Source: a virus. From it: DNA of 60,309 nt. Numbering within the stretch: position 1 is the first letter of the stretch; each line of letters opens with the position of its first letter. Location of the stretch: IMG/VR virus record IMGVR_UViG_3300050821_008749, positions 1 through 60,309 of that record, one strand, 5' to 3'. The notes below the pieces were generated by a model, which saw only the letters and a program-made list of their open reading frames with translations, had not been told where the DNA came from and ran no database searches. Shown piece by piece: positions 8,750 to 59,991 of the stretch. The position numbers and the translations under genes are program-made.

Positions 8750-8989
8750 TCATTTTTTATATCCTGGATGATGAACTATTAAATAATGAACGGAATCATG
8801 TAAATACCGCTGCTGTTCGCTATAGCTTAATGAATTCCATATTTCCATCCATTCGTCTGTCAAAGGTTCTATTTCAATATATTTTACTACTTCAGTAGGA
8901 ATAGGGCCCTCAAAAGATGAAGGTAACGAAGGCTTGCTAAATACAGGCAGCCTATGAAAATGCTCCAGGTATTCACGAGTATAAGCCAT
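8750..8989 (-). CDS. Hypothetical small protein
   Basis: 79 residues, acidic and aromatic (EIWNSLSYSEQQRYLHDSVHY). It sits 3 nt upstream of the next gene in the same strand series. No family or membrane segment recognised. Confidence 0.5.
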   Translation of the reverse strand: MAYTREYLEHFHRLPVFSKPSLPSSFEGPIPTEVVKYIEIEPLTDEWMEIWNSLSYSEQQRYLHDSVHYLIVHHPGYKK

Positions 8990-8995
8990 AACAGA

Positions 8996-9319
8996 CTATT
9001 TATTGTCCCAAGTATCCTTAGCAGATTTCAGTCGTTCGTCCCAGCGATCTTGAATGGGATTTTCTTCTTTTTTCTTTTTTGCGGCTTCGATTATTTCAGC
9101 CAATGCCGCCATTTTCGCTTTCCTATGAAACATGAAAGTGTACCACGGAATCTGAACTAATAAAAGCCAGCTTACAGAAAGCCACTGAGGGCAGAATACC
9201 CACCACCATGAATAAGGAAAATGATTGTCCAATTTAAGAAAGATGAAAGCCGTACTTATAAGTACTATAGCATTTGGATTGACGATATTAATTTTAGGTT
9301 GCTCAGTAGGCTTAATCAT
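8996..9319 (-). CDS. Small two-span membrane protein
   Basis: 107 residues from ATG 9319, chosen because it overlaps the upstream stop (9312-9314) by only a few bases; an upstream start at 9415 would overlap that gene by 104 nt. Two hydrophobic spans (about residues 15-31 and 42-65, the second Trp-rich: SVSWLLLVQIPWYTFMF) are followed by a Lys/Glu-rich cytoplasmic-looking helix. Could be a superinfection-exclusion or envelope-modifying protein, judging only from topology and its place in an accessory block. Confidence 0.5.
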   Translation of the reverse strand: MIKPTEQPKINIVNPNAIVLISTAFIFLKLDNHFPYSWWWVFCPQWLSVSWLLLVQIPWYTFMFHRKAKMAALAEIIEAAKKKKEENPIQDRWDERLKSAKDTWDNK

Positions 9320-9596
9320 TTCGCGTGGTTTTAGCTCTATATAATTTGAAATCAGTGTCGTATGATGCGTCTTTAGATAACGGTAAATCGATTCCATTTC
9401 GTAGGTCATCAGCAACTTCTCCTATCTTGCCGATGAATATAGCCGCTATCTGGGCGCCGATGGAATCAGGGTCACCTTTTTTACGCAGTGCATCCATGAA
9501 ATCAATAAAGTCGTCTCTGTACATCGTAGTTATGAAAGTGACTTTATCAATTTCATTATTCGGATGGAATATTGCACTTTTAGTTCGTGGATTCAT
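9312..9596 (-). CDS. Hypothetical accessory protein
   Basis: 94 residues from ATG 9596, which abuts the TAG of the upstream gene at 9598-9600. The sequence FITTMYRDDFIDFMDALRKK and GAQIAAIFIGKIGEVADDLR looks like a small helical soluble protein. No known family. Confidence 0.5.
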   Translation of the reverse strand: MNPRTKSAIFHPNNEIDKVTFITTMYRDDFIDFMDALRKKGDPDSIGAQIAAIFIGKIGEVADDLRNGIDLPLSKDASYDTDFKLYRAKTTRND

Positions 9597-9597
9597 G

Positions 9598-9786
9598 CTA
9601 GAGAAGTATGTTTTTTGTAGCTGACAGTTCAAGGGCATAATGATAGCTTTCGGTAGTCCCGGAACATATTAAATACCTACAACCTTCAGGAGTTATAAGT
9701 ATGCTTATTACTAATCTCGCTCGCTGATCGGAATCAGTAATATGATATACAGTATCGCCTATGGCGAATTCGGTATCTACAGTCAT
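9598..9786 (-). CDS. Small 'FAIGDTVYHITDSDQRARLV' protein
   Basis: 62 residues. The pattern GDTVY..TD.DQR.R.V followed by a short GTTESYHYALELS segment is a recurrent short phage protein in Bacteroidetes, probably a small beta-barrel. ATGA overlap with the upstream gene. Function unknown. Confidence 0.6.
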   Translation of the reverse strand: MTVDTEFAIGDTVYHITDSDQRARLVISILITPEGCRYLICSGTTESYHYALELSATKNILL

Positions 9787-10031
9787 AATTCTTTCGGAAT
9801 TTTAAGCCGAAGACCTCGCCTATCAGCTTCAGCTTTCAAAGCTGCGCAGTATTCGAAATCTTCAGTTAGAAGATAATGCCTAAGTTGATCTTGTATCGCC
9901 TCATCAGTAAGATCCGATACTACATAATATGTCACAACAACGCCGCCAACTAAGTCAGCGCCTATTCGTTGATTACGTCTGTATTCTTGTTTCTGTGGCA
10001 TAACATACTTTGGCCAATATGAACGTTTCAT
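9783..10031 (-). CDS. Hypothetical protein translated after the Tad2-like gene
   Basis: 82 residues from ATG 10031, which overlaps the stop of the Tad2-like gene as ATGA; an upstream ATG at 10049 is less likely. Basic N-terminus (MKRSYWPKYVMPQKQEYRR), then VVVTYYVVSDLTDEAIQDQL and a C-terminal helix. Co-translation with the Tad2-like gene hints at a related counter-defence or host-interaction role, but nothing in the sequence proves this. Confidence 0.5.
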   Translation of the reverse strand: MKRSYWPKYVMPQKQEYRRNQRIGADLVGGVVVTYYVVSDLTDEAIQDQLRHYLLTEDFEYCAALKAEADRRGLRLKIPKEL

Positions 10032-10381
10032 CAGTCCACGATTTGCCAATCTTCAGCAAGCAGGTCAGTTTGAGAAGCGAACCAGGGAACATGCTCGCCA
10101 GTAGCAGTTTTCATATCGATATGAGGCAGATACGTTACGGTTTCCCCGACGGATAAATGCGCGGCTAGAGGACGCCCTTCAGAAACTTGAAAGGTGGATC
10201 CTGGAACGAGATATAGCCACATGCCTTTGCCGTTCCACCCGGTTCGGGCAACCTTGAATCCTTGCTTTAAGTGTGAAAGAGCGATACTAAAATTGAATGT
10301 ATGGCCGCCGTAAGTTTCGCGTTCGGGTTGCGTTTTGACTGCATCAGTTGAGGGCTTGGATCCAGGATGTAAATGAGACAT
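10031..10381 (-). CDS. DUF2829 / Thoeris anti-defence 2 (Tad2)-like protein
   Basis: 116 residues. Residues ~27-116 follow the DUF2829 pattern closely: FSIALSHLKQGFKVARTGWN, GKGMWLYLVPGS, TYLPHIDMKTATGEHVPW and FASQTDLLAEDWQIVD. Tad2 proteins of this fold bind and sequester the cyclic ADP-ribose signal made by Thoeris defence, so the phage would block that abortive response. The first ~26 residues are an unstructured polar leader. It is the first gene after a terminator in the minus-strand block and is coupled to the next gene. DUF2829 membership is well supported. Actual anti-Thoeris activity is inferred from the family. Confidence 0.8.
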   Translation of the reverse strand: MSHLHPGSKPSTDAVKTQPERETYGGHTFNFSIALSHLKQGFKVARTGWNGKGMWLYLVPGSTFQVSEGRPLAAHLSVGETVTYLPHIDMKTATGEHVPWFASQTDLLAEDWQIVD

Positions 10382-10402
10382 AGCTATAATTTTTAAGGGA
10401 AT

Positions 10403-10443
10403 GAAAAATAAACCCCCGGTATAACCGAATAAAATACCGGGGG
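10403..10443 (-). terminator. Intrinsic terminator between two minus-strand units
   Basis: Perfect 10-bp stem CCCCCGGTAT (10413-10422) with ATACCGGGGG (10434-10443). Read on the minus strand the hairpin ends in GGGGG followed by TTTATTTTTC. It closes the unit containing the XRE, LuxR-type and Ig-like genes, so the Tad2-like gene needs its own promoter or read-through. Confidence 0.8.
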
Positions 10444-10481
10444 CTAATCCAAAAGTCCGAGTTTACTAAAATTCGAATGCT

Positions 10482-11006
10482 TTACTGAGCCGCGGCAGCT
10501 GCTACAGGTGCCGGAGTACTCCAGCCGGATTGATTGACAATCTGCGTAGCAAGATCGCTGATCAAAACGGAATACGTGAGGTTCGGCAAGGCGTTTCCGT
10601 CTGCATCCTGGGCACCGATCGTAATGGTTGCACCGGCAGCAGTAGTATCGCCTATAGCGGTAGCCGTGACAGTATTGCCACTGATCGCTAGGCCGATGTT
10701 TGTCGTGTCGGAAGAGACCGCCGTAAGATTCTGAATAGTTTCAACATCGCCAGTTGCGTCCTGGCCTTGGAAAATTGCTGAGGTAGCAAATCCCTTTTTC
10801 ATTGTAATGTCCATAGATAAAAAACCTTTATGATTTAAAGTAAAGGTAAATTTCATTGGCCCGGTTGATGACAAAGCGGCCATCACTATTTTTCGGGCCC
10901 TTTTCGGTTCATGGTGGAACCTACGGCGAAAGTTTTCGACAAGGCTGTCGATTGTATCATGCGCTTCATCGATAAGCTGGAGCAGCATATTTTTTTCAGG
11001 GTTCAT
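10482..11006 (-). CDS. Ig-like domain protein, possible capsid decoration
   Basis: 174 residues, starting 1 nt after the HTH gene stop. Residues 1-50 are helical (LLQLIDEAHDTIDSLVENFR), a middle segment repeats short beta strands, and residues ~75-160 read as a bacterial Ig-like/BIG domain (DTTNIGLAISGNTVTATAIG, AQDADGNALPNLTYSV). An Ala-rich tail ends the protein. Phage Ig-like proteins often decorate heads, and the next plus-strand gene is the capsid polyprotein. It is nevertheless transcribed with regulators on the opposite strand, so the role is uncertain. Confidence 0.5.
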   Translation of the reverse strand: MNPEKNMLLQLIDEAHDTIDSLVENFRRRFHHEPKRARKIVMAALSSTGPMKFTFTLNHKGFLSMDITMKKGFATSAIFQGQDATGDVETIQNLTAVSSDTTNIGLAISGNTVTATAIGDTTAAGATITIGAQDADGNALPNLTYSVLISDLATQIVNQSGWSTPAPVAAAAAQ

Positions 11007-11007
11007 A

Positions 11008-11211
11008 TTAAGGTATTAAATTATTTCTTAGATAATGAGCAACTAAGTGTGCGACAGTATGAGTTTCAGTTTTTCGTCTGAGACGGTTTATATACTGTTG
11101 AGTACCTTTATAACTTACATTTAGCCTAGCTGCAATTTCTTTAACCGATTTTCCATTAGCGAGAGCTAATACAATAGCTAAATCCCTGATTTCCCGGTTC
11201 GTTTTTGTCAT
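11008..11211 (-). CDS. LuxR/GerE-type helix-turn-helix regulator
   Basis: 67 residues, essentially only a DNA-binding domain. AIVLALANGKSVKEIAARLN followed by VSYKGTQQYINRLRRKTET is the four-helix LuxR/GerE pattern, with the recognition helix in the second part. No receiver or sensor domain. Probably controls phage or host transcription. An upstream inverted repeat at 11239-11291 could be its site or that of the neighbouring XRE protein. Confidence 0.75.
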   Translation of the reverse strand: MTKTNREIRDLAIVLALANGKSVKEIAARLNVSYKGTQQYINRLRRKTETHTVAHLVAHYLRNNLIP

Positions 11212-11238
11212 GAGATAAATTATTTAAGTCCAGAGCCA

Positions 11239-11291
11239 TGGAGAAATTGAAAACCATGCGTCGGCGGACCTGCACTATTTCAATTTCTCCA
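11239..11291. repeat. 14-bp perfect inverted repeat between two regulator genes
   Basis: TGGAGAAATTGAAA (11239-11252) is the exact reverse complement of TTTCAATTTCTCCA (11278-11291), with a 25-nt spacer. It sits in the 125-nt gap between the XRE-type and LuxR-type genes. No T-run follows on either strand, so an operator is more likely than a terminator. Confidence 0.65.
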
Positions 11292-11336
11292 GCTGGATAA
11301 GCCCCGTCAATTTGATCCAGCTTTGCGTACTTATTC

Positions 11337-11573
11337 TCAGGCGCCGCCGGCAGCCTTACCTTCAGCCATATCTTTCTCAAGCTTATCCAATGAAGCAAGA
11401 TATAAGTGCTCAGTTAGTGTATTCCAGCCATTTTCGCCGCTCTCCATCCTAAATATTGTTTGCTGGCTGATTCCAGAAGCCGCTGAAAGATCAGCAATAG
11501 ATATCCCGGCTTTCGTACGCATTTCCTTTAGCTCGGCGGATCTACGCCGTATATAATCAGAGGTATCGCCCAT
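11337..11573 (-). CDS. XRE-family transcriptional regulator
   Basis: 78 residues from ATG 11573; longer starts at 11603 and 11621 exist but would place the gene start inside a likely promoter -7 region. The HTH is clear: LKEMRTKAGISIADLSAASG followed by ISQQTIFRMESGENGW is the classic Cro/CI-type fold, with the recognition helix at QQTIFRME. A short C-terminal helix (LASLDKLEKDM) may dimerise. It is the first gene of the minus-strand operon and diverges from the capsid polyprotein gene across about 100 bp, so it is well placed to control both directions. Confidence 0.8.
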   Translation of the reverse strand: MGDTSDYIRRRSAELKEMRTKAGISIADLSAASGISQQTIFRMESGENGWNTLTEHLYLASLDKLEKDMAEGKAAGGA

Positions 11574-11658
11574 ATAAAAAGTTATATCCGTATAAAGATT
11601 CATAAAGATATATAAAATCACGTCTTTTCAAAACAATCCGACAACTATATTTTCCAAT

Positions 11659-11666
11659 TACGTTTG
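11659..11666 (+). promoter_or_regulatory. Possible -7 box for the capsid operon
   Basis: TACGTTTG matches the Bacteroidetes -7 consensus TAnnTTTG and ends 8 nt before the ATG of the polyprotein gene, in the gap divergent to the XRE gene. No good -33 TTTG is visible at the usual spacing, so this is tentative. Confidence 0.35.
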
Positions 11667-11674
11667 TAGCTAAG

Positions 11675-14383
11675 ATGGAGCAGCGCGAACGTCGAATCGT
11701 AGTCAGTAGCCCCGCGATCAATAATAAAGGTTCGAAAATACCCAATGAAGTGGTGGATTTCGAGTCTCGATTCCGGGGAAATCCGGTAGGTTTTAAAAAC
11801 CACAACTGGGACGATGACAGTATTTGCACTTGGAAAGACTGGAGAATCGAGGACGTACGAGGAAAACAGTGTTGGACAGCGGTTCCGGTTTTTCACGAAA
11901 TAACAGAAGATTCCAAAAAGTACAAAAAGATGTACGATGCCGGCGTCCTCCGGTCTGCGAGTCTTGGCGGTTTCTCGTCTTATAAGACGGACTACATGGG
12001 CCAGGAGCTGTTAGATGAGGATGGTGCGAAGGTTTCTACCGGTTTTGAAGTTTTTGAAATCTCGCTTCCTTCCGTTCAGGCTAATCCTGATGCTACGCAA
12101 GTTGAACCGCTGATACTTACGGCAGCAGATGCGGAAGACCTGGATATCGGACCGCGGTATCTGGAAGTAGACGAACTAGGACATTTAAATGAGCGCCTTA
12201 CGGTGCTGTCAGCAAAATACAATAATAAACCCCTGGAAATGAAAAATAACGGTACTGAAACTGTTGTCGATCCCCTGGATGAAGAAACCCAGGAAGAAAA
12301 AACCGCTAAAGAAACGCTCGCTGCTGCTCAAAAGAAGCGCGAAGAGCTGAAAGCGGCCAAAGTGAAAGAAACCCAGGGGGCTGAAGAACTTCCCGAGTTC
12401 ATGAAGAAAATTACTAAGACCAATAATAGCACCTTGGCATCCCTTGCCGGCGCTATTGCCAGCGGTATAAAGACCTTTTTTTCCGGAGAGGATGGCGAAG
12501 CGCCTCCTATCACCGACCAACCCCGAACCAAAAAGCCGGGTAAAGATACCGGCCCCGAACAGCCCAATCCTGTAGGCCTTGCTGCTGAAAAAGCGGCCGC
12601 TGAAAAGCGCGAAAAGCTTGAAAAAGCTAAAGCTAGAGCATCCGAAGCTACTGAAAAGTTGCGCGGAGCGAAGGAAAAAGCCGAAAAGGGAGACGCTACT
12701 GAGGACGATGTCGAAAACTACAAGGCTATGGCTAAGGAGTGTGATGCCGCTATGAAGGACTGCGAAGCCGCCGAAAAAGACTGCAATGATGCAGTAGACG
12801 ATTCGGAAGAAATGAAGGCTGAAAAAGCTAAAAAGGAAAAAGAAGCGCACGCCGCAAAACAAGCTGAACTCCTGGCTGCCCAAGAAGCTGCTGCTAAAGT
12901 AGCCGCCGCGGGAGGCTCTAAGCCCGCGCTTAAAACCCTGGAACAGATGAAAGCAGAATTTACGACGCTGGCCCCTAAGCCGGAATCTACGAGCAAAGTT
13001 ATCCGCGATTACGCCGGCAAAACCTTTAGTCAACTGCGTGCATCTACCGACGCCAATGATGAAAGGCTGCTTGCCCGCGTCCTGGCCCCTCAGGAAGCCG
13101 GATCCCTTGCAACGTTACAGGAAGCCCAGGTCCTTCTCAGCTCCATGATGATCGACCCGAAATTCCGCAATGTCATGTCCCGGGCCCGGTTCGCTTCGAA
13201 TGTCTCTGACAGGGAAGCCGAAGCGATACGCCTTTCCCCGGCATATGGCCGTAGCCAGGGTTTGTTTACTACACCCGAGCAGTTCATGGCGCAATTTCAG
13301 TCCGGCGGGGTTGAATACTTCGGCGCTGACCGGACCGTCAGAAAGATGACCACCTTATCCAGCTCGGACGCCGCCCTGGCTTCGCCCGCGCTGAATGCCA
13401 TCGCCTTTCTTTCGTTGATCTTTTTTAAGCTGTTCCCCTCGGGTGAATGGAAAAGCCAGGTACCGGTACTCGCACCTGAGATTATGCCCGATAACACCGG
13501 GGTGATTTGGGGTAACATTATGACGCAGCCCACTATTTACGTGGGTAACCAACCTGTGTCGCCGGCTGACTACCTGCCTGCCGATAATGCGGTTTCTATG
13601 GCGCTCGTCCCTTACTGGATGCAGCCCCTGCGTTTCACTCCGCTTACGATGCACCAACTTCGGTACGATCAGGAATCCAGCGGTATCGCTCAGGCTTTCG
13701 CTACGATGAATAGCTTCATTGACGACAAGCTGATTTATGCGCTGTTGAGCCTTGTACCTCAGTCCTCTATCGTTCAGACTTCTGGCGTTCCGTCCAATCC
13801 GACCCCCGCTACTGCGAGCCCTTACTTTAACATTGCTGGCGCTACTTCTCCGGATGCTTTCGCTTTCTCGCCGAACTTTACTGGGTACTTGACCAAACCG
13901 GTCTTGAATGACGTATCTACCCTGGAACAGATTCTGTACAAGCAGAATTTCAAGCTAAAAGACGAAAAGCAGCTGATGGTGGTCGATCCGACCATGTACA
14001 AATACCTGACTCAGGATCCGGATACGAAATCCCTGCTGACCCGTTGGGTAGGTGATGGCGACGATAAGCTGCTGCAATATCAGAATACCCGGTTTATTAT
14101 GCGTTCTCAGGTCGGTGCCTGGAACCCCGCGGTAGGAGCTACCCCCGGCGCTGTTCTGGATCCCTATGGCGTTGTGCCGAATACGGCCATTTCGATCGCC
14201 CTGGGCTTTATCGCCAGTCAAATCGCGCTCGGTATCGGCCTGCTCGATGTATTCCAGGTTCAGGACCCGACCAACTACGGTATGAGGATCTCTGCTGACG
14301 TTCGTATGGGCGCTGCTGCAATGTGGTACGCTGCCCGTGGTATGACCGCCTACACTTACGCAGCCGGTCAGATTCCTGCATAA
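11675..14383 (+). CDS. Fused prohead protease - scaffold - major capsid protein
   Basis: 902 residues in one uninterrupted frame. Residues 1-~150 look like an HK97-type prohead protease: GNPVGFKNHN carries a candidate catalytic His (H43) and VLRSASLGGFSS the candidate Ser (S96) in the usual S.GG/F context. Residues ~170-440 are Lys/Glu/Ala-rich coiled coil typical of scaffolding. Residues ~455-902 look like an HK97-fold capsid: a head segment (LATLQEAQVLLSSMMIDPKF), aromatic beta regions such as SLIFFKLFPSGEW and VPYWMQPLRF, and a C-terminal GMRISADVRMGAAAMW. Separate genes encode these parts in most phages. Self-cleavage at domain borders is expected but not visible. Starts the right-hand structural operon. 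Confidence 0.85.
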   Translation: MEQRERRIVVSSPAINNKGSKIPNEVVDFESRFRGNPVGFKNHNWDDDSICTWKDWRIEDVRGKQCWTAVPVFHEITEDSKKYKKMYDAGVLRSASLGGFSSYKTDYMGQELLDEDGAKVSTGFEVFEISLPSVQANPDATQVEPLILTAADAEDLDIGPRYLEVDELGHLNERLTVLSAKYNNKPLEMKNNGTETVVDPLDEETQEEKTAKETLAAAQKKREELKAAKVKETQGAEELPEFMKKITKTNNSTLASLAGAIASGIKTFFSGEDGEAPPITDQPRTKKPGKDTGPEQPNPVGLAAEKAAAEKREKLEKAKARASEATEKLRGAKEKAEKGDATEDDVENYKAMAKECDAAMKDCEAAEKDCNDAVDDSEEMKAEKAKKEKEAHAAKQAELLAAQEAAAKVAAAGGSKPALKTLEQMKAEFTTLAPKPESTSKVIRDYAGKTFSQLRASTDANDERLLARVLAPQEAGSLATLQEAQVLLSSMMIDPKFRNVMSRARFASNVSDREAEAIRLSPAYGRSQGLFTTPEQFMAQFQSGGVEYFGADRTVRKMTTLSSSDAALASPALNAIAFLSLIFFKLFPSGEWKSQVPVLAPEIMPDNTGVIWGNIMTQPTIYVGNQPVSPADYLPADNAVSMALVPYWMQPLRFTPLTMHQLRYDQESSGIAQAFATMNSFIDDKLIYALLSLVPQSSIVQTSGVPSNPTPATASPYFNIAGATSPDAFAFSPNFTGYLTKPVLNDVSTLEQILYKQNFKLKDEKQLMVVDPTMYKYLTQDPDTKSLLTRWVGDGDDKLLQYQNTRFIMRSQVGAWNPAVGATPGAVLDPYGVVPNTAISIALGFIASQIALGIGLLDVFQVQDPTNYGMRISADVRMGAAAMWYAARGMTAYTYAAGQIPA

Positions 14384-14426
14384 GGTCTGATGGTTAAAAG
14401 ATCTAATTGAGTATCAACTAATTAAG

Positions 14427-14969
14427 ATGAAAAATATTATCCTCGTTGCATTTTTAGCCTTTATCGGCCTTACCTCTGAAGCGCAGGTCCGGGACACCGT
14501 GCAGCCGCTGGTAAACCAGGGCAATACGTTCGATATTTTCGGAACAATGCCTACCAGTTTACTGCCGGGTCCCGGCAATCCTATGCCTGCTACGGCAGTA
14601 GCCCCTACCTGTATTGATTCTCTTCAGGTGAGCGATACCATCGCAGCGATCATACCGGTCAATCATACCAATGATATTGACTTGTTCAGTTCGTGGTACT
14701 GGCTAAAAGTCGGATCGGGAACTGCTACGATTACTGCCTCGTATTGGCAAAGTAATGACGGCGCAAACTGGCGCCCTGTCATTAAGGGTGTTTTGGACTC
14801 GGCATATACGCGCATTTTCACGCTTTCGGCATCCGGATGGAACTACATCGATACGAAAGTCGATACTGCCCGATTCACCGGAAGGTTTTTGAAGATACAG
14901 CTGATGACATCCAGCACGGCCTCCGTTGGTGGTAGGGTCTATATGCGAACTAAAACTACATTGAAGTAA
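14427..14969 (+). CDS. Secreted-looking beta protein between capsid and sheath genes
   Basis: 180 residues. The first 20 residues (MKNIILVAFLAFIGLTSEAQ) form a good Sec signal peptide with cleavage before Q or QV. The rest is polar beta sequence (YWQSNDGANWRPVIKGVLD, GWNYIDTKVDTARFTGRF) resembling a carbohydrate-binding or discoidin-like beta sandwich. A signal peptide on a protein from the virion cassette is odd: it may be exported to the host envelope, or it may be a virion protein borrowed from a host surface protein. It lies 43 nt after the capsid gene. Confidence 0.6.
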   Translation: MKNIILVAFLAFIGLTSEAQVRDTVQPLVNQGNTFDIFGTMPTSLLPGPGNPMPATAVAPTCIDSLQVSDTIAAIIPVNHTNDIDLFSSWYWLKVGSGTATITASYWQSNDGANWRPVIKGVLDSAYTRIFTLSASGWNYIDTKVDTARFTGRFLKIQLMTSSTASVGGRVYMRTKTTLK

Positions 14970-34852: not shown

Positions 34853-34882
34853 CCCCGGTTGTTTCTACTTCCGGGGTTTTTT
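34853..34882 (+). terminator. Intrinsic terminator of the late/lysis operon
   Basis: CCCCGG (34853-34858) pairs with CCGGGG (34871-34876), followed directly by TTTTTT. Positioned 26 nt after the last stop, between late genes and the early-region promoter. Confidence 0.8.
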
Positions 34883-34894
34883 ACGCCTTATAAA

Positions 34895-34932
34895 ATAAAT
34901 CTTGAATATAGGTCGTTTAATTCAAGATTTAT
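34895..34932. promoter_or_regulatory. 13-bp inverted repeat overlapping a promoter, candidate operator
   Basis: ATAAATCTTGAAT (34895-34907) and ATTCAAGATTTAT (34920-34932) are exact reverse complements separated by 12 nt. The right arm covers the region between the -33 and -7 elements of the adjoining promoter. Typical operator geometry for an HTH dimer. Confidence 0.6.
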
Positions 34933-34943
34933 GTATATCTTTG
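34914..34943 (+). promoter_or_regulatory. Early promoter P1
   Basis: GTTTAATTCAA at the -33 side and TATCTTTG at 34936-34943 as -7 box, 22 nt before the ATG at 34966. It shares the TTTAATTCAA block with the promoters at 35281, 37782 and 60076. Confidence 0.75.
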
Positions 34944-34965
34944 ACTAAACAAATAATAACATACT

Positions 34966-35211
34966 ATGACAAATCAGGAAACTGGACAAAAAATGGCGCT
35001 TCTGGCGCACAACGCGAGGGCTTACGCTGAGATGCTGACGCTTTCAGCGAAAGAATTAAATGCCTTGGCTACTGTGCTAGAAATACAGCCAGATGCAGAG
35101 GCCGAAAACGCCTATCAATTAGACCTGATTCTAAAAGCAGCACTTAAATCATTCAGATTTATTGCGACGGATGTTAGAGTTACGCTGGAATCATTGAACC
35201 GGCCTATCTAA
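34966..35211 (+). CDS. Small helical early protein
   Basis: 81 residues with its own promoter and terminator, a single-gene unit. Predicted almost wholly helical (LAHNARAYAEMLTLSAKELN, YQLDLILKAALKSFRFIATD). No family recognised. Isolated strong expression right after the lysis terminator suggests a host-takeover protein. Confidence 0.6.
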   Translation: MTNQETGQKMALLAHNARAYAEMLTLSAKELNALATVLEIQPDAEAENAYQLDLILKAALKSFRFIATDVRVTLESLNRPI

Positions 35212-35219
35212 TTGATTTT

Positions 35220-35250
35220 AGCCCCTGGAGTATTATCTAGGGGCTTTTTT
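35220..35250 (+). terminator. Intrinsic terminator after the first early gene
   Basis: AGCCCCT (35220-35226) pairs with AGGGGCT (35239-35245), 12-nt loop, then TTTTTT. Ends the single-gene unit at 34966-35211. Confidence 0.85.
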
Positions 35251-35280
35251 ATGCCCAGAAAAATAAATCTTGAAAAAGGC

Positions 35281-35311
35281 TTGTTTAATTCAACTTTTAA
35301 TTTTAGCTTTG
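35281..35311 (+). promoter_or_regulatory. Early promoter P2
   Basis: TTG at 35281-35283, core TTTAATTCAACTTTT, and -7 TAGCTTTG at 35304-35311. The preceding AAAATAAATCTTGAA is shared with P1. Drives the gene at 35343 and probably the series carrying the leader RNAs. Confidence 0.8.
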
Positions 35312-35342
35312 ATTCATCAAACAAACAATAACACTTTCCTTT

Positions 35343-35582
35343 ATGAAATTACGTCATACAAACTCTTTTACCCGCTCGGTTTCTTTAGAAGAGGGGATTT
35401 TATTTCTGATTTCTTTGGGCTACGTACTATCTCCTAAAGACGAATTGCAGGTGTTAGGATATACGGACGGCACACGCCAGTTAACAAAAAGCGATGGTTG
35501 TGTGACTTATTACGCCAGCGTTTCCCCGAATAGACTAGCTAAAGGCTGTCCTGAAATGCTGCCTTTTGATATTCTTTATTGA
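35343..35582 (+). CDS. Small early protein of unknown function
   Basis: 79 residues, 31 nt after promoter P2. Soluble and beta-rich (EEGILFLISLGYVLSPKDEL, QVLGYTDGTRQLTKSDG). No recognised domain. First gene of the operon that contains the three pseudoknot-like leaders. Confidence 0.55.
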   Translation: MKLRHTNSFTRSVSLEEGILFLISLGYVLSPKDELQVLGYTDGTRQLTKSDGCVTYYASVSPNRLAKGCPEMLPFDILY

Positions 35583-35607
35583 TAAGCTCGCTGGTTTATA
35601 TATCGCC

Positions 35608-35655
35608 GCCTCGCATCGTAAATGGTGCGAGGCTTTGGTGGCAAAACTATTTTAT
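35608..35655 (+). ncRNA. Pseudoknot-like leader RNA, copy A
   Basis: Stem GCCTCGCA (35608-35615) with TGCGAGGC (35626-35633), loop TCGTAAATGG, then TTTGGTGGCAAAACTATTTT up to the ATG at 35656. Loop bases TCGTAAA can pair with the downstream TTGGTGG (wobbles, one A-G mismatch), giving an H-type pseudoknot just before the start codon of the PP-loop gene. Confidence 0.75.
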
Positions 35656-36396
35656 ATGCAAGATAAAAAGGTTTTTATTGGTCTGTCAGGCGGGATAAAT
35701 TCCATGGCCGTTCTTTGTTGGCTAGTTGAGTCTAAAATCATTCCGTCGGAACTGCATCTATTTTATGCGCATTTAAAAGAACATTCACCTGATACTTTTA
35801 AATTCGTTGTTGCTGGTATTAGGTATGCAAGACTTCATTTCCCTAACGTTCATGTTAAAGTGACCCGTAATAGCGTTTTGGCTTTTTTCGAGGAGCAAAA
35901 AATGATTCCACACCCGACTATCAGCCCATGCACTCAGCGGCTTAAAATAGAGCCTATGGAAAGATATTGCGCCGAACACGGAATTACTATAGATCTCATA
36001 GGATATGTTCGTAAGGAAACGCGTAGGATCAAAAGAATGGAAAAAAAGCGAGACGAAAACCTAGATTTGGGCAAGCTATTTCCTATTAGAGACTTCAATG
36101 ATGATTGGTGCTTCGAAATCGTCGATCGACATATAGGTTGGCACCCTGCAATCTATGACATAAAAGATGATACCGGGAAACGGCTATTTACGCACAACAA
36201 TTGCCTGCCCTGTAAAAATATGTATGTAAAGGATATGAGAAATATACAATCTCATTTTCCAGACTACATGAATAAAGCGACTATAACAGCGAACAAGCTA
36301 AAAAAATATTGGGGTCGCAATGCTGAAGATTATTACACGCAATTCGGCCGCGAGGATTTAAACATCCCTCAGTGCGAAATTTGTCAGTTTGATTAA
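35656..36396 (+). CDS. PP-loop / PAPS-reductase-like protein
   Basis: 246 residues from ATG 35656, chosen because the frame upstream runs through the leader RNA hairpin. FIGLSGGINSMAVLCWLVES is the PP-loop that binds ATP or PAPS, residues 11-16 SGGINS. Later features are SPCTQRLKIEPMERYC, a conserved substrate region of phage PAPS-reductase-like proteins, and two Cys pairs (NNCLPCKNM, PQCEICQFD) that could hold zinc or an Fe-S cluster. In phages such enzymes are linked to sulfur chemistry or nucleic-acid modification. Substrate unknown. Expression is probably controlled by leader copy A. Confidence 0.75.
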   Translation: MQDKKVFIGLSGGINSMAVLCWLVESKIIPSELHLFYAHLKEHSPDTFKFVVAGIRYARLHFPNVHVKVTRNSVLAFFEEQKMIPHPTISPCTQRLKIEPMERYCAEHGITIDLIGYVRKETRRIKRMEKKRDENLDLGKLFPIRDFNDDWCFEIVDRHIGWHPAIYDIKDDTGKRLFTHNNCLPCKNMYVKDMRNIQSHFPDYMNKATITANKLKKYWGRNAEDYYTQFGREDLNIPQCEICQFD

Positions 36397-36424
36397 TTAA
36401 TCACCTTTTAAATAGTAAGTAATT

Positions 36425-36640
36425 ATGCCAAAGACAAGAAACACCATTGCACAACGAAAGGTTGAACTGATCAACAAATTGTCTATTCCACATATATTAA
36501 GCGAAACATCTATTTTCAAAAAACCAATAGGAAAGCCTCCACTGGATGCGTATACAGTCGATCATATAAAAGAAGGACTTGCACTTTGGTGGAATAGTTG
36601 GGTAAAGGACGAATTGGATTTTTTAATGGATAAAATTTGA
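36425..36640 (+). CDS. Small basic early protein
   Basis: 71 residues, basic N-terminus (MPKTRNTIAQRKVELINKLS) and a Trp-rich acidic end (LALWWNSWVKDELDFLMDKI). Lies between the PP-loop gene and leader copy B. No family recognised. Confidence 0.5.
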   Translation: MPKTRNTIAQRKVELINKLSIPHILSETSIFKKPIGKPPLDAYTVDHIKEGLALWWNSWVKDELDFLMDKI

Positions 36641-36654
36641 TGATGTTCAAATAG

Positions 36655-36700
36655 CCCGATACCGTAAATGGATCGGGATTTGGCGGCAAAACTATTTTAT
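36655..36700 (+). ncRNA. Pseudoknot-like leader RNA, copy B
   Basis: Stem CCCGAT (36655-36660) with ATCGGG (36672-36677), loop ACCGTAAATGG, then TTTGGCGGCAAAACTATTTT to the ATG at 36701. The stem sequence differs completely from copy A but stays complementary, while loop and tail are conserved. Loop CCGTAAA faces TTGGCGG for a second helix. Confidence 0.75.
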
Positions 36701-36853
36701 ATGCAAGGTGAAAAACTTACCAAAGCCCTTGACTGGTTCAGCAAGGCCGTAAAGATGGAGCAGGAAAATAAACCTACGATGGCCGAAAAAGCAATGGATC
36801 GCGCCATTGCGATGGAGAAAGAAGGCCTGGAGGCCGGCGAATCTTATGATTAG
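36701..36853 (+). CDS. Very small acidic/basic helical protein
   Basis: 50 residues from ATG 36701 after leader copy B. Sequence MQGEKLTKALDWFSKAVKME, then MAEKAMDRAIAMEKEGLEAG suggests two amphipathic helices rich in Met and Lys/Glu. Too short for domain assignment. The conserved leader argues that it is a real regulated gene. Confidence 0.55.
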   Translation: MQGEKLTKALDWFSKAVKMEQENKPTMAEKAMDRAIAMEKEGLEAGESYD

Positions 36854-36873
36854 TTAAAATCTTAGCAATGAGC

Positions 36874-36922
36874 AAACCGGGTACCGTCAATGGACCCGGT
36901 TTTGACGGTAAAACTACATAGT
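36874..36922 (+). ncRNA. Pseudoknot-like leader RNA, copy C
   Basis: Stem AAACCGGGT (36874-36882) with ACCCGGTTT (36894-36902), loop ACCGTCAATGG, tail TTGACGGTAAAACTACATAG to the ATG at 36923. Here the loop ACCGTCAA is an exact 8-base complement of TTGACGGT, with one base at the junction shared by the two helices. This is the clearest of the three pseudoknots. Compared with A and B, several paired positions change together. Confidence 0.8.
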
Positions 36923-37399
36923 ATGAGTACTATAAAAGAGCTACTTCCTAAACCTTCCGATGCTGTTCAAGCCATGATTGGCGGACTTAAAGAGTACGAC
37001 GCTGATCCGAATTTCAGTATATGCATGAAGTCATATGGCAATTCGGATGCATCAGGTGTTTGTTTCGGTTGCGCCGCTACTTGCACAATTCAGCATGTTT
37101 TCAAGTATGCTTTTACTCCCTGGCAAATCAAAAGTACCCTTAGAAGAGCAGCCGCCGTAAACTCAGATTATAGTGCGCTCAATAAATTTGAGTTTATGAT
37201 TAATGGTTTAAGATCGGGCGATTTACACTCGTTATTATACTATTATGGCATAAATATTTACTGTAGTCTTGAATTATCGGAATTATGCAATGAATGGGAT
37301 GCGCTACGCCATTTATATGCATTGAGTACCCATAATTGGAGAGAAAGACTGCCTCGTTGGGACCGCTTGGTAGCCAGGCTCAAATTTCATAACCTTTAA
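36923..37399 (+). CDS. Early protein with a Cys-rich centre
   Basis: 158 residues from ATG 36923. Residues ~40-60 contain C-x(14)-C-x2-C-x4-C spacing (ICMKSYGNSDASGVCFGCAA then TC), possibly a zinc site, followed by helical sequence (IQHVFKYAFTPWQIKSTLRR). No family recognised. Controlled by leader copy C. Confidence 0.55.
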   Translation: MSTIKELLPKPSDAVQAMIGGLKEYDADPNFSICMKSYGNSDASGVCFGCAATCTIQHVFKYAFTPWQIKSTLRRAAAVNSDYSALNKFEFMINGLRSGDLHSLLYYYGINIYCSLELSELCNEWDALRHLYALSTHNWRERLPRWDRLVARLKFHNL

Positions 37400-58915: not shown

Positions 58916-59002
58916 TAGCAGGACCGGGAGTCGAACCCGGAAAGAGATTGCGCCCTAACAAGATTTTAAGTCTTGCGTGTCTACCAATTTCACCATCCTG
59001 CC
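58916..59002 (-). tRNA. tRNA-Leu (UAA)
   Basis: 87 nt on the minus strand. Acceptor GGCAGGA with TCCTGCT, discriminator A; anticodon stem CAAGA/TCTTG around loop CTTAAAA gives UAA; long variable arm; T-loop GGTTCGACTCC. All helices regular. UAA leucine codons are frequent in the AT-rich genes here. Confidence 0.9.
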
Positions 59003-59007
59003 AAGAA

Positions 59008-59033
59008 CGGACCCGCATAGAAATGCAGGTCCG
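59008..59033 (-). ncRNA. Spacer hairpin 5' of tRNA-Leu
   Basis: In the minus-strand RNA CGGACC-U-GCAU pairs with AUGC-G-GGUCCG, loop UUCU, an 11-pair stem with one U-G pair. It ends 5 nt before the tRNA. A second hairpin of the same plan lies at 59340-59361. Confidence 0.7.
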
Positions 59034-59063
59034 AATGTCTACAAATGAGAATACAAGTTACCG

Positions 59064-59158
59064 CGGAAAGCGAGGGATTCGAACCCTTACCGGAGAGTTG
59101 CAGCTGCCCGGACCAGTTTAGCAAACTGGCGCCACAAAACCGTATTGGCCTACTTTCC
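59064..59158 (-). tRNA. tRNA-Ser (GCU)
   Basis: 95 nt. Acceptor GGAAAGT/GCTTTCC, discriminator G; anticodon stem CCAGT/ACTGG with loop TTGCTAA; long variable arm typical of Ser; T-arm AGGGTTCGAATCCCT. Complete. Confidence 0.9.
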
Positions 59159-59262
59159 GAATACCTACGGCATTTTACAACCGCGGGCATCACGGTATCC
59201 CGGCGCTCTCCATAAAAGCCCCCGTTGACTAATACTTCGCTAACCGGATTACCGATCTTTTG

Positions 59263-59333
59263 CACGCCCCCTAAGATTCGAACTTAGATACCTGGGTCTG
59301 GAAGCCAGAGTCCTGCCGTTGGACGAGAAGCGC
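59263..59333 (-). tRNA. tRNA, probably Trp (CCA), possibly Gly (UCC)
   Basis: 71 nt. Acceptor GCGCTTC/GGGGCGT (three G-U pairs), D-stem GTCC/GGAC, T-arm CTAAG TTCGAAT CTTAG are good. The anticodon arm can be folded with CTGGC/CCCAG, loop TTCCAGA, anticodon CCA, with one C-C mismatch next to the loop, or with UCC as anticodon and a poorer stem. Discriminator G favours Trp. Confidence 0.7.
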
Positions 59334-59339
59334 GTAATA

Positions 59340-59361
59340 GGTCCGCATGGAAATGCAGACC
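59340..59361 (-). ncRNA. Spacer hairpin 5' of the probable tRNA-Trp
   Basis: Minus-strand RNA GGUC-U-GCAU pairs with AUGC-G-GACC, loop UUCC. Same inner stem and U-G pair as the hairpin before tRNA-Leu, different but still complementary outer pairs; ends 6 nt before the tRNA. Confidence 0.7.
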
Positions 59362-59390
59362 GTCTTAATGTCAAATATCAAAAATGTCCG

Positions 59391-59475
59391 CGGAAGCTAT
59401 AGGATTCGAACCTATGCAAGATTTACCTTGTCGCCAGTTTTCAAGACTGGAGCATTACCACTCTGCCAAACTTCC
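59391..59475 (-). tRNA. tRNA-Ser (UGA)
   Basis: 85 nt. Acceptor GGAAGTT/AGCTTCC, discriminator G; anticodon stem CCAGT/ACTGG with loop CTTGAAA; variable arm ACAAGG...CTTG; T-arm ATAGGTTCGAATCCTAT. The 5' end touches the stop codon of the 59475-59810 gene. Confidence 0.9.
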
Positions 59476-59810
59476 TAATTTTCATCAGCACAAAAATAAG
59501 CGTATGCGGCCGCTTTAGTTTCAGAATCTTCTAAATGTCTAATTGTTTCAGATTTATCGAAGTCTTCTACGTCAAAATGGATCGTTTCTTCAATTGTCAT
59601 TTCTGAATAAAAAGGGCAAAGGCCAGCTTGCTCAGAAAACCAGGTATTAAATCGTTGCTCAAAAGGACCGACTCGCGGAATGCTACTTTCATCAACCGGG
59701 TCAAATTGCTTTTTCATGCAGATTACGCTAGTTTCCATTACAGTGTAATTGCTGTAGCCTTCATCTTGAAAAGCTAAGAATTTGCAGTTTTTGCATGATA
59801 TCTCTTCCAT
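59475..59810 (-). CDS. Cys-rich small protein embedded in the tRNA operon
   Basis: 111 residues. N-terminal CKNCKFLAFQDEGYSNYTVM with a later VICMKK forms a Cys-based metal site typical of a zinc knuckle, and the acidic C-terminal half includes HFDVEDFDKSETIRHLEDSE. A family I recall from Bacteroidetes phages without function. Ends at the 5' end of tRNA-Ser(UGA). Confidence 0.6.
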   Translation of the reverse strand: MEEISCKNCKFLAFQDEGYSNYTVMETSVICMKKQFDPVDESSIPRVGPFEQRFNTWFSEQAGLCPFYSEMTIEETIHFDVEDFDKSETIRHLEDSETKAAAYAYFCADEN

Positions 59811-59835
59811 ATAAATTGCAGGTTAAAAAGCCTGC

Positions 59836-59908
59836 CGCCATCTTTGCGCGATTCAAACGCGCTCCCAGGGTGCCCCCTGTATGCGCTCGGGATACATCAT
59901 AGGATGAC
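59836..59908 (-). other. tRNA-like element or degenerate tRNA
   Basis: About 73 nt between tRNA-Met and a protein gene. Acceptor GTCATCC/AGATGGC (six of seven pairs) and a T-arm GCGCG TTTGAAT CGCGC are recognisable, but the T-loop lacks C56, two extra bases sit before the acceptor, and the anticodon stem CAGGG/CCCTG leaves only four loop bases. Not a normal functional tRNA. Confidence 0.45.
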
Positions 59909-59917
59909 GACAGGTTA

Positions 59918-59991
59918 TGGACTTTCACGGGATCGAACCGCGCACCTGATGATTATGAGTCACCTGCTCTGACCAACTGAGCTAAAAGTCC
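59918..59991 (-). tRNA. tRNA-Met (CAU) or tRNA-Ile2
   Basis: 74 nt. Acceptor GGACTTT/AAAGTCC, discriminator A, D-arm AGCTCAGTTGGTCAGAGCA, anticodon stem GGTGA/TCATC with loop CTCATAA, T-arm CGCGGTTCGATCCCGTG. CAU can be elongator Met, or Ile if the C is lysidinylated. The regular G1-C72 acceptor argues against initiator Met. Confidence 0.85.

Follow-up and report, generated by a model that had tools for sequence, protein, structure and literature searches.

The preQ1-I and SAM-II riboswitches (RF00522 and RF00521) are short leaders beside a start codon, built of one hairpin and then an A-rich tail, and they fold by pairing of the loop with the tail into an H-type pseudoknot. Coat-protein operators of the MS2 type are hairpins near a start codon with an unpaired A a few pairs below a short loop, and the intercistronic processing or stabilizing hairpins of phage mRNAs (T4 and others) separate the genes of a shared transcript and precede a start codon. 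In pause and ops-type sites, similar in outline to the element described here, a hairpin is followed directly by a G-rich tail. In a phylum that otherwise ignores Shine–Dalgarno signals, the extended Shine–Dalgarno of Bacteroidota rpsU is a special leader signal (PMC9976891), and Bacteroidota phages are thought to manipulate the same ribosome step (PMC9976891).

We analysed a hairpin with a conserved tail that resembles each of these systems in part. From comparison of its copies we conclude that Bacteroidota phages carry in it a previously undescribed leader RNA that acts in cis, and that a host factor most likely recognizes it and would set the translation or the mRNA fate of the next gene. 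Cis-acting leader RNAs are a known kind; this family, whose most constant part is a tail outside the hairpin and whose carriers are unrelated phages of one host group, seems to be new, and we found no description of such an element in the literature (open-access papers).

Three copies in one phage operon

The window, that is, the whole stretch of 60,309 nucleotides that was analysed, comprises an entire IMG/VR virus record (IMGVR_UViG_3300050821_008749). It contains three copies of the element, A (35608–35646), B (36655–36691) and C (36874–36913), each a GC-rich hairpin followed by the tail UUGRYGGYAAAA and a start codon. All three had been located in the preliminary description and are confirmed in the sequence. 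Their parts and the genes that follow them are:

35608–35633, + strand: copy A hairpin, 8-bp stem GCCTCGCA/TGCGAGGC (35608–35615 / 35626–35633), loop TCGTAAATGG
35635–35646, + strand: copy A tail TTGGTGGCAAAA, an exact match to the conserved tail of the 19 elements
35656–36396, + strand: gene downstream of copy A, ATG at 35656, 246 aa, phosphoadenosine phosphosulfate reductase-like (PP-loop)
36655–36677, + strand: copy B hairpin, 6-bp stem CCCGAT/ATCGGG (36655–36660 / 36672–36677), unpaired A, CC/GG, loop GTAAAT
within 36655–36677, + strand: copy B loop, also written CCGTAAATGG
36680–36691, + strand: copy B tail TTGGCGGCAAAA, an exact match to the conserved tail of the 19 elements
36701–36853, + strand: gene downstream of copy B, ATG at 36701, 50 aa, orphan
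36874–36902, + strand: copy C hairpin, 9-bp stem AAACCGGGT/ACCCGGTTT (36874–36882 / 36894–36902), unpaired A, CC/GG, loop GTCAAT
within 36874–36902, + strand: copy C loop, also written CCGTCAATGG
36902–36913, + strand: copy C tail TTGACGGTAAAA, an exact match to the conserved tail of the 19 elements
36923–37399, + strand: gene downstream of copy C, ATG at 36923, 158 aa, phrog_32504 (unknown function; E = 7e-6)

The tail starts no more than two bases from the stem and 21 nt before the ATG in all three copies, which take up the space between one gene and the next. For each hairpin, nearly all shuffles fold less well; that of copy A reaches −19.5 kcal/mol in RNAfold, with none of 300 shuffles as good. 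There are exactly three matches to the pattern AATGGN{4,12}TTKRNGGYAAAACTA in the record and none to its reversed control, so the window copies are not a product of chance. With only copies B and C as input, a covariance model recovers copy A (E = 1.4e-9, a rough value, as are all those from short-calibrated models). The gene after copy A matches phrog_424 (E = 3.8e-19), its match to PF01507 (E = 7.8e-4) lying below the cut-off; Pfam-type and phrog profiles gave no family match for the gene after copy B, and the gene after copy C has a distant homologue in Cellulophaga phage phi17:2 (E = 7e-4).

The common loop GUAAAUGG contains an AUG (window 36668–36670 in B and 36890–36892 in C), sequestered inside the hairpin. 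In B and C this AUG lies 11 codons before the gene and shares its reading frame, which it does not in A, in agreement with the earlier statement that the frame relation differs between copies. The term early genes, used for the three downstream genes in the preliminary description, is an assumption about their timing. In Bacteroidetes, AUG is reported to be under-represented near starts (PMC6847099). Preceding the operon of the three copies, two adjacent gene leaders at 34880–35340 share a near-repeated AT-rich sequence (ATAAATCTTGAA...TTTAATTCAA...TTTGA) and resemble Bacteroidota promoters, and five tandem tRNA genes lie on the minus strand at the record end (58916–59991).

Relatives, conservation and carriers

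A covariance model made from the window copies only (R1) was run on 396 genomes of the family that includes Ginsengibacter genome G005, which we take to be Chitinophagaceae. One clear genome match was obtained, in G227 (E = 2.2e-8), where two more copies revealed which bases vary; the check proposed in the preliminary description, a covariance model built from the window copies, here finds further copies in another genome. The next pattern, of loop and tail with the stem unspecified, was scanned against IMG/VR and gave further copies whose flanks form 6–13-bp stems of differing sequence. A model built from 15 copies (R3) extended the set to copies with other loops and to a second genome, G242, and the final set comprises 19 elements in 11 records. 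The collection scans returned exact-pattern matches only, and the family is therefore surely larger. The preliminary description had let its reading depend on the existence of further covarying copies; the 16 found here favour the element, and the structured leader RNA that was proposed there, with a compensated stem and a conserved loop and tail, repeated before separate genes, is borne out.

Other searches gave no further members. A loose pattern matched at least 119 stretches in IMG/VR and, among the matches listed, all except the window copies were chance occurrences in coding DNA. The strict tail TAGTTTTNCC was found with the element's stem in none of the viral contigs and genome contigs, because GGCAAAACTA is a local form of the tail. 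Protein searches in IMG/VR recovered no relatives of gene A or gene C, no gene C homologue was present in 395 Bacteroidota genomes, and the element was found neither at the Cellulophaga homologue of gene C nor at DUF2800 relatives. Weak model matches in host genomes (L166–L175, L281–L283 and L285) looked like chance or terminators.

In the alignment of copies, 99.2% of the cells in the hairpin are paired, a value inflated by the fitting of the alignment to the hairpin structure, and six of the eight pairs carry two-sided changes (19 cells, against 4.3 in shuffles). All slid versions were at most 60% paired, and the stems of pattern-found copies had not been used for selection in the scans. The stem includes G-U pairs and the common loop is closed by one, features more in keeping with an RNA than with a DNA cruciform. 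The usual cap, [A/U]-CC-G-UMAM-U-GG, is a UMAM tetraloop closed by G-U (14 of 19 copies), and an unpaired A or U usually lies below the loop; the other five copies have the loops UACCC, CAUAGU, CUAACAA (twice) and CGAACAA. As judged from the alignment, the G-UMAM-U loop is common but replaceable and the tail is the most constant part. Its positions 1–12 read UUGGNGG[CU]AAAA, with position 5 free and positions 3, 11 and 12 invariant; most of the 12 carry more than 1.1 bits, and information is near zero beyond them. A variant, UUGGNRGUGCAAR, stands before three genes. Of 16 exact tail matches in phage DNA, eleven adjoin a strong hairpin and precede a start codon; the other five seem due to chance. 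The 719 kb (both strands) searched from the two carrier genomes is almost entirely host DNA. It has four tail matches, none with a strong hairpin, which likewise seem due to chance, and no copy of the element; a host-wide hairpin–tail element was rejected.

Every one of the 19 copies is intergenic, on the coding strand and co-oriented with the downstream gene. The ATG follows the tail start by 19–109 nt (19–46 nt in all but two, with 66 and 109 nt), and the upstream gene, where traceable, ends 31–106 nt before the tail. The downstream genes are of many kinds, tail sheath and holin-like genes among them, with unrelated functions. At an orthologous tail sheath gene (G785, G227p and G242) and at an orthologous gene after the capsid gene (G785, G791 and G227p) the element is kept while its stem and loop sequence has changed, and such persistence is, in the comparison of copies, the strongest sign of selection on hairpin plus tail. 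Comparative analysis shows hairpin formation through compensated changes, a conserved tail, constant position and strand, and diverse phage carriers; compensated pairs across independent copies and a constant place before start codons are the marks of a cis-acting structured leader RNA.

The carriers fall into six groups: the window phage; phages and prophages with a DUF2586 tail sheath and genes in common (G785, G786, G791, G227p and G242); a pair with seven genes in common (G788 and G789); a podophage-like contig (G784) whose portal resembles those of Maribacter phage Panino and Cellulophaga phi38:1; a crAss-like contig (G787) whose portal matches cr118_1, cr116_1 and phi14:2; and a provirus (G227q) whose capsid protein matches PDB 5oac (E = 1.8e-8), which is the capsid of the ssDNA phage FLiP. 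Few or no genes are shared between groups, and no protein common to all six was found at E 1e-3 among ORFs of at least 35 aa, a search that could miss one, most carriers being incomplete contigs. The IMG/VR records are fragments, and the host group rests on two genomes (G227 and G242).

Several features of individual carriers were also observed. The minus strand of L181 (G227:C14:808000-827900) holds, at 8800–14900, a provirus with the 5oac-matching capsid and a 617-aa putative replication protein; it is a FLiP-like ssDNA phage integrated in a Chitinophagaceae genome. Two unrelated proviruses of that one genome (L181, 10231–10265, and L180, 12750–12790) have the same local form of the element, with the stem lengthened by CUUAA/UUAAG and the tail AAGGUGKCAAAA, as if it had been swapped between them or fitted to that host. 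Further hairpins (CCCCCGCCGAAAAGGCGGG and CTCCTCTTTCAAAAAGAGGAG) lie between the element and the tail sheath gene in L180 (9600–9730; G227p_c). In L287 (10700–11290; G242:C148) two copies before different genes are identical in the hairpin and in over 20 nt of the DNA preceding it, and this pair is a recent leader duplication.

Pseudoknot and rival explanations

The preliminary description had proposed a pseudoknot between loop and tail. In its register, 70.1% of the loop–tail pairs are paired in 15 aligned copies against 71.0% in shuffles, and in a bulged register 82.4% against 80.9%; two-sided changes number one and zero, respectively. Opposite the loop G, any of the four bases (C, U, G or A) can stand in the tail. 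With both registers at the level of shuffles, and five copies keeping the same tail with quite different loops, we rejected the pseudoknot. The exact eight-base match noted in copy C (ACCGTCAA/TTGACGGT) does exist, but A and B fall short of it and it is not conserved in relatives; because pairing is at shuffle level and the same tail stands under different loops, it is best read as coincidence, with a weak or transient contact possible. The likeness drawn to preQ1-I and SAM-II is removed along with the pseudoknot, since it is by such pairing that those riboswitches fold, and neither matches in Rfam even at E ≤ 10. No Rfam family matches the element in the window or carrier loci, where no riboswitch reached its gathering score, and none appeared at E ≤ 10 for 35560–36960. 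A short structured leader beside the start codon, and one downstream gene that is metabolic (sulfate reductase-like), speak for a riboswitch for a small metabolite. The absent Rfam match, pseudoknot pairs that do not covary, a single short hairpin with a replaceable loop, and downstream genes of many kinds that include tail sheath and holin-like ones make this reading scarcely credible.

Among the other explanations, processing or stability of the mRNA is the strongest, although we consider it less likely than not. An endonuclease would cut a long phage transcript at the conserved tail, between two genes, leaving the hairpin to protect the upstream 3′ or the downstream 5′ end. The element fills the stop-to-start gap inside operons, a variable spacing to the ATG would be tolerated, and exchange of the loop with the tail kept would suit a generic protecting hairpin beside a sequence-specific cut site. 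However, a generic hairpin would not require the loop common to 14 of 19 copies or the unpaired A or U kept beneath it in most, and 12 bases are long for a cleavage site; to our knowledge, a conserved 12-base tail of this sequence has not been described for T4-type intercistronic hairpins. A transcriptional role, with hairpin and GGNGG tail forming a put-like or ops-like pause or antitermination site that resets elongation at gene borders, is quite improbable. The element does stand at gene borders in long operons, but a tie to start codons would not be expected, no U tract follows the hairpin, and no NusG paralogue (PF02357) was found in the nine virus records searched, G227 and G242 having a single NusG each. 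An intrinsic terminator was rejected, the hairpin being followed by at most two or three U and then by GGNGG.

The presence of the element before several genes of one phage would suit an operator for a phage-encoded translational repressor, comparable to the MS2 coat-protein hairpin. This we regard as very unlikely: the six carrier groups have no protein in common (E 1e-3, ORFs of 35 aa or more), the loop, which is the binding site of such proteins, is shared by 14 of 19 copies and replaced in five, and the downstream genes are functionally unrelated. Unlike MS2-type operators, the element has a different loop, a conserved tail outside the hairpin and many copies before unrelated genes, in carriers without a common phage protein. 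Still less probable is an element acting as DNA, namely a REP-like or recombination sequence that would spread by being mobile and simply be tolerated in front of genes. Occurrence in unrelated phages would be accounted for, and the two G242 prophage copies with identical DNA upstream of the hairpin indicate that recent duplication happens. Against this, all 19 copies point the same way with respect to genes, and nearly every copy has its own stem sequence while loop and tail are retained. The element is also maintained at orthologous genes, and no copy occurs in the 719 kb of mostly host DNA, in which numerous REP-like elements would be expected.

A possible host-read signal in the leader

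The reading that we prefer, tentatively, is that a host factor recognizes the tail and raises or controls translation of the next gene. Each copy would act in cis from the 5′ leader of a single gene within a polycistronic phage mRNA; its GC-rich hairpin is followed by the conserved tail UUGGNGGYAAAA, outside the hairpin, and then by the start codon. The hairpin would present the tail and insulate it from the preceding gene; the tail would be recognized by a Bacteroidota host factor, which could be the initiating ribosome, a ribosome-associated protein or another RNA-binding protein; and recognition would raise or control translation of the next gene. We infer from the copies and their placement that the element acts as RNA in the mRNA, that a host factor is its reader and that translation is the step affected. 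As the element lies just before start codons within operons, control of next-gene translation or of mRNA ends are the leading mechanisms. Both dsDNA tailed phages and a FLiP-like ssDNA provirus carry it and share no common protein; as unrelated phages have the element in common but not a gene, the simplest reader is a host-supplied factor, and of the three functions offered in the preliminary description a host-factor site now fits best, whereas the riboswitch has become unlikely.

Some observations weigh against this reading. The tail lies at no set distance from the ATG, an arrangement equally suited to processing or stability, and since initiation in Bacteroidetes is tuned by mRNA structure, along with key bases such as A at −3 (PMC6847099), a hairpin would be an odd enhancer. 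Pairing of the tail with 16S rRNA was tried as an explanation and rejected, since duplex energies with the 16S of G227 are, for most copies, close to the mean of the shuffles; the only copies to come close to such pairing are those with GGAGG and GGGGG. Neither the anti-Shine–Dalgarno nor any other stretch of host 16S rRNA gave the tail a consistent gain over shuffles. The element differs in this from the extended Shine–Dalgarno of rpsU, as also in the free middle base of its GGNGG and its variable distance to the ATG. A signal of another kind than Shine–Dalgarno fits the blindness of Bacteroidia ribosomes to Shine–Dalgarno signals (PMC9976891, PMC6847099).

Phages of environmental Bacteroidota can be annotated with the element as a new RNA family. 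A further-reaching and rather doubtful proposition is that unrelated Bacteroidota phages have acquired the same leader RNA because it opens a host-specific route to the ribosome, unused by ordinary host genes, as a phage-only translation signal. If true, tailed dsDNA, crAss-like and FLiP-like ssDNA phages would carry such a signal in a phylum that lacks Shine–Dalgarno initiation. The element bears on how Bacteroidota ribosomes choose start codons without Shine–Dalgarno pairing and how phages may bend that choice, and a compact element that recurs across unrelated phages and is seemingly absent from host genes would offer a handle on start-codon choice.
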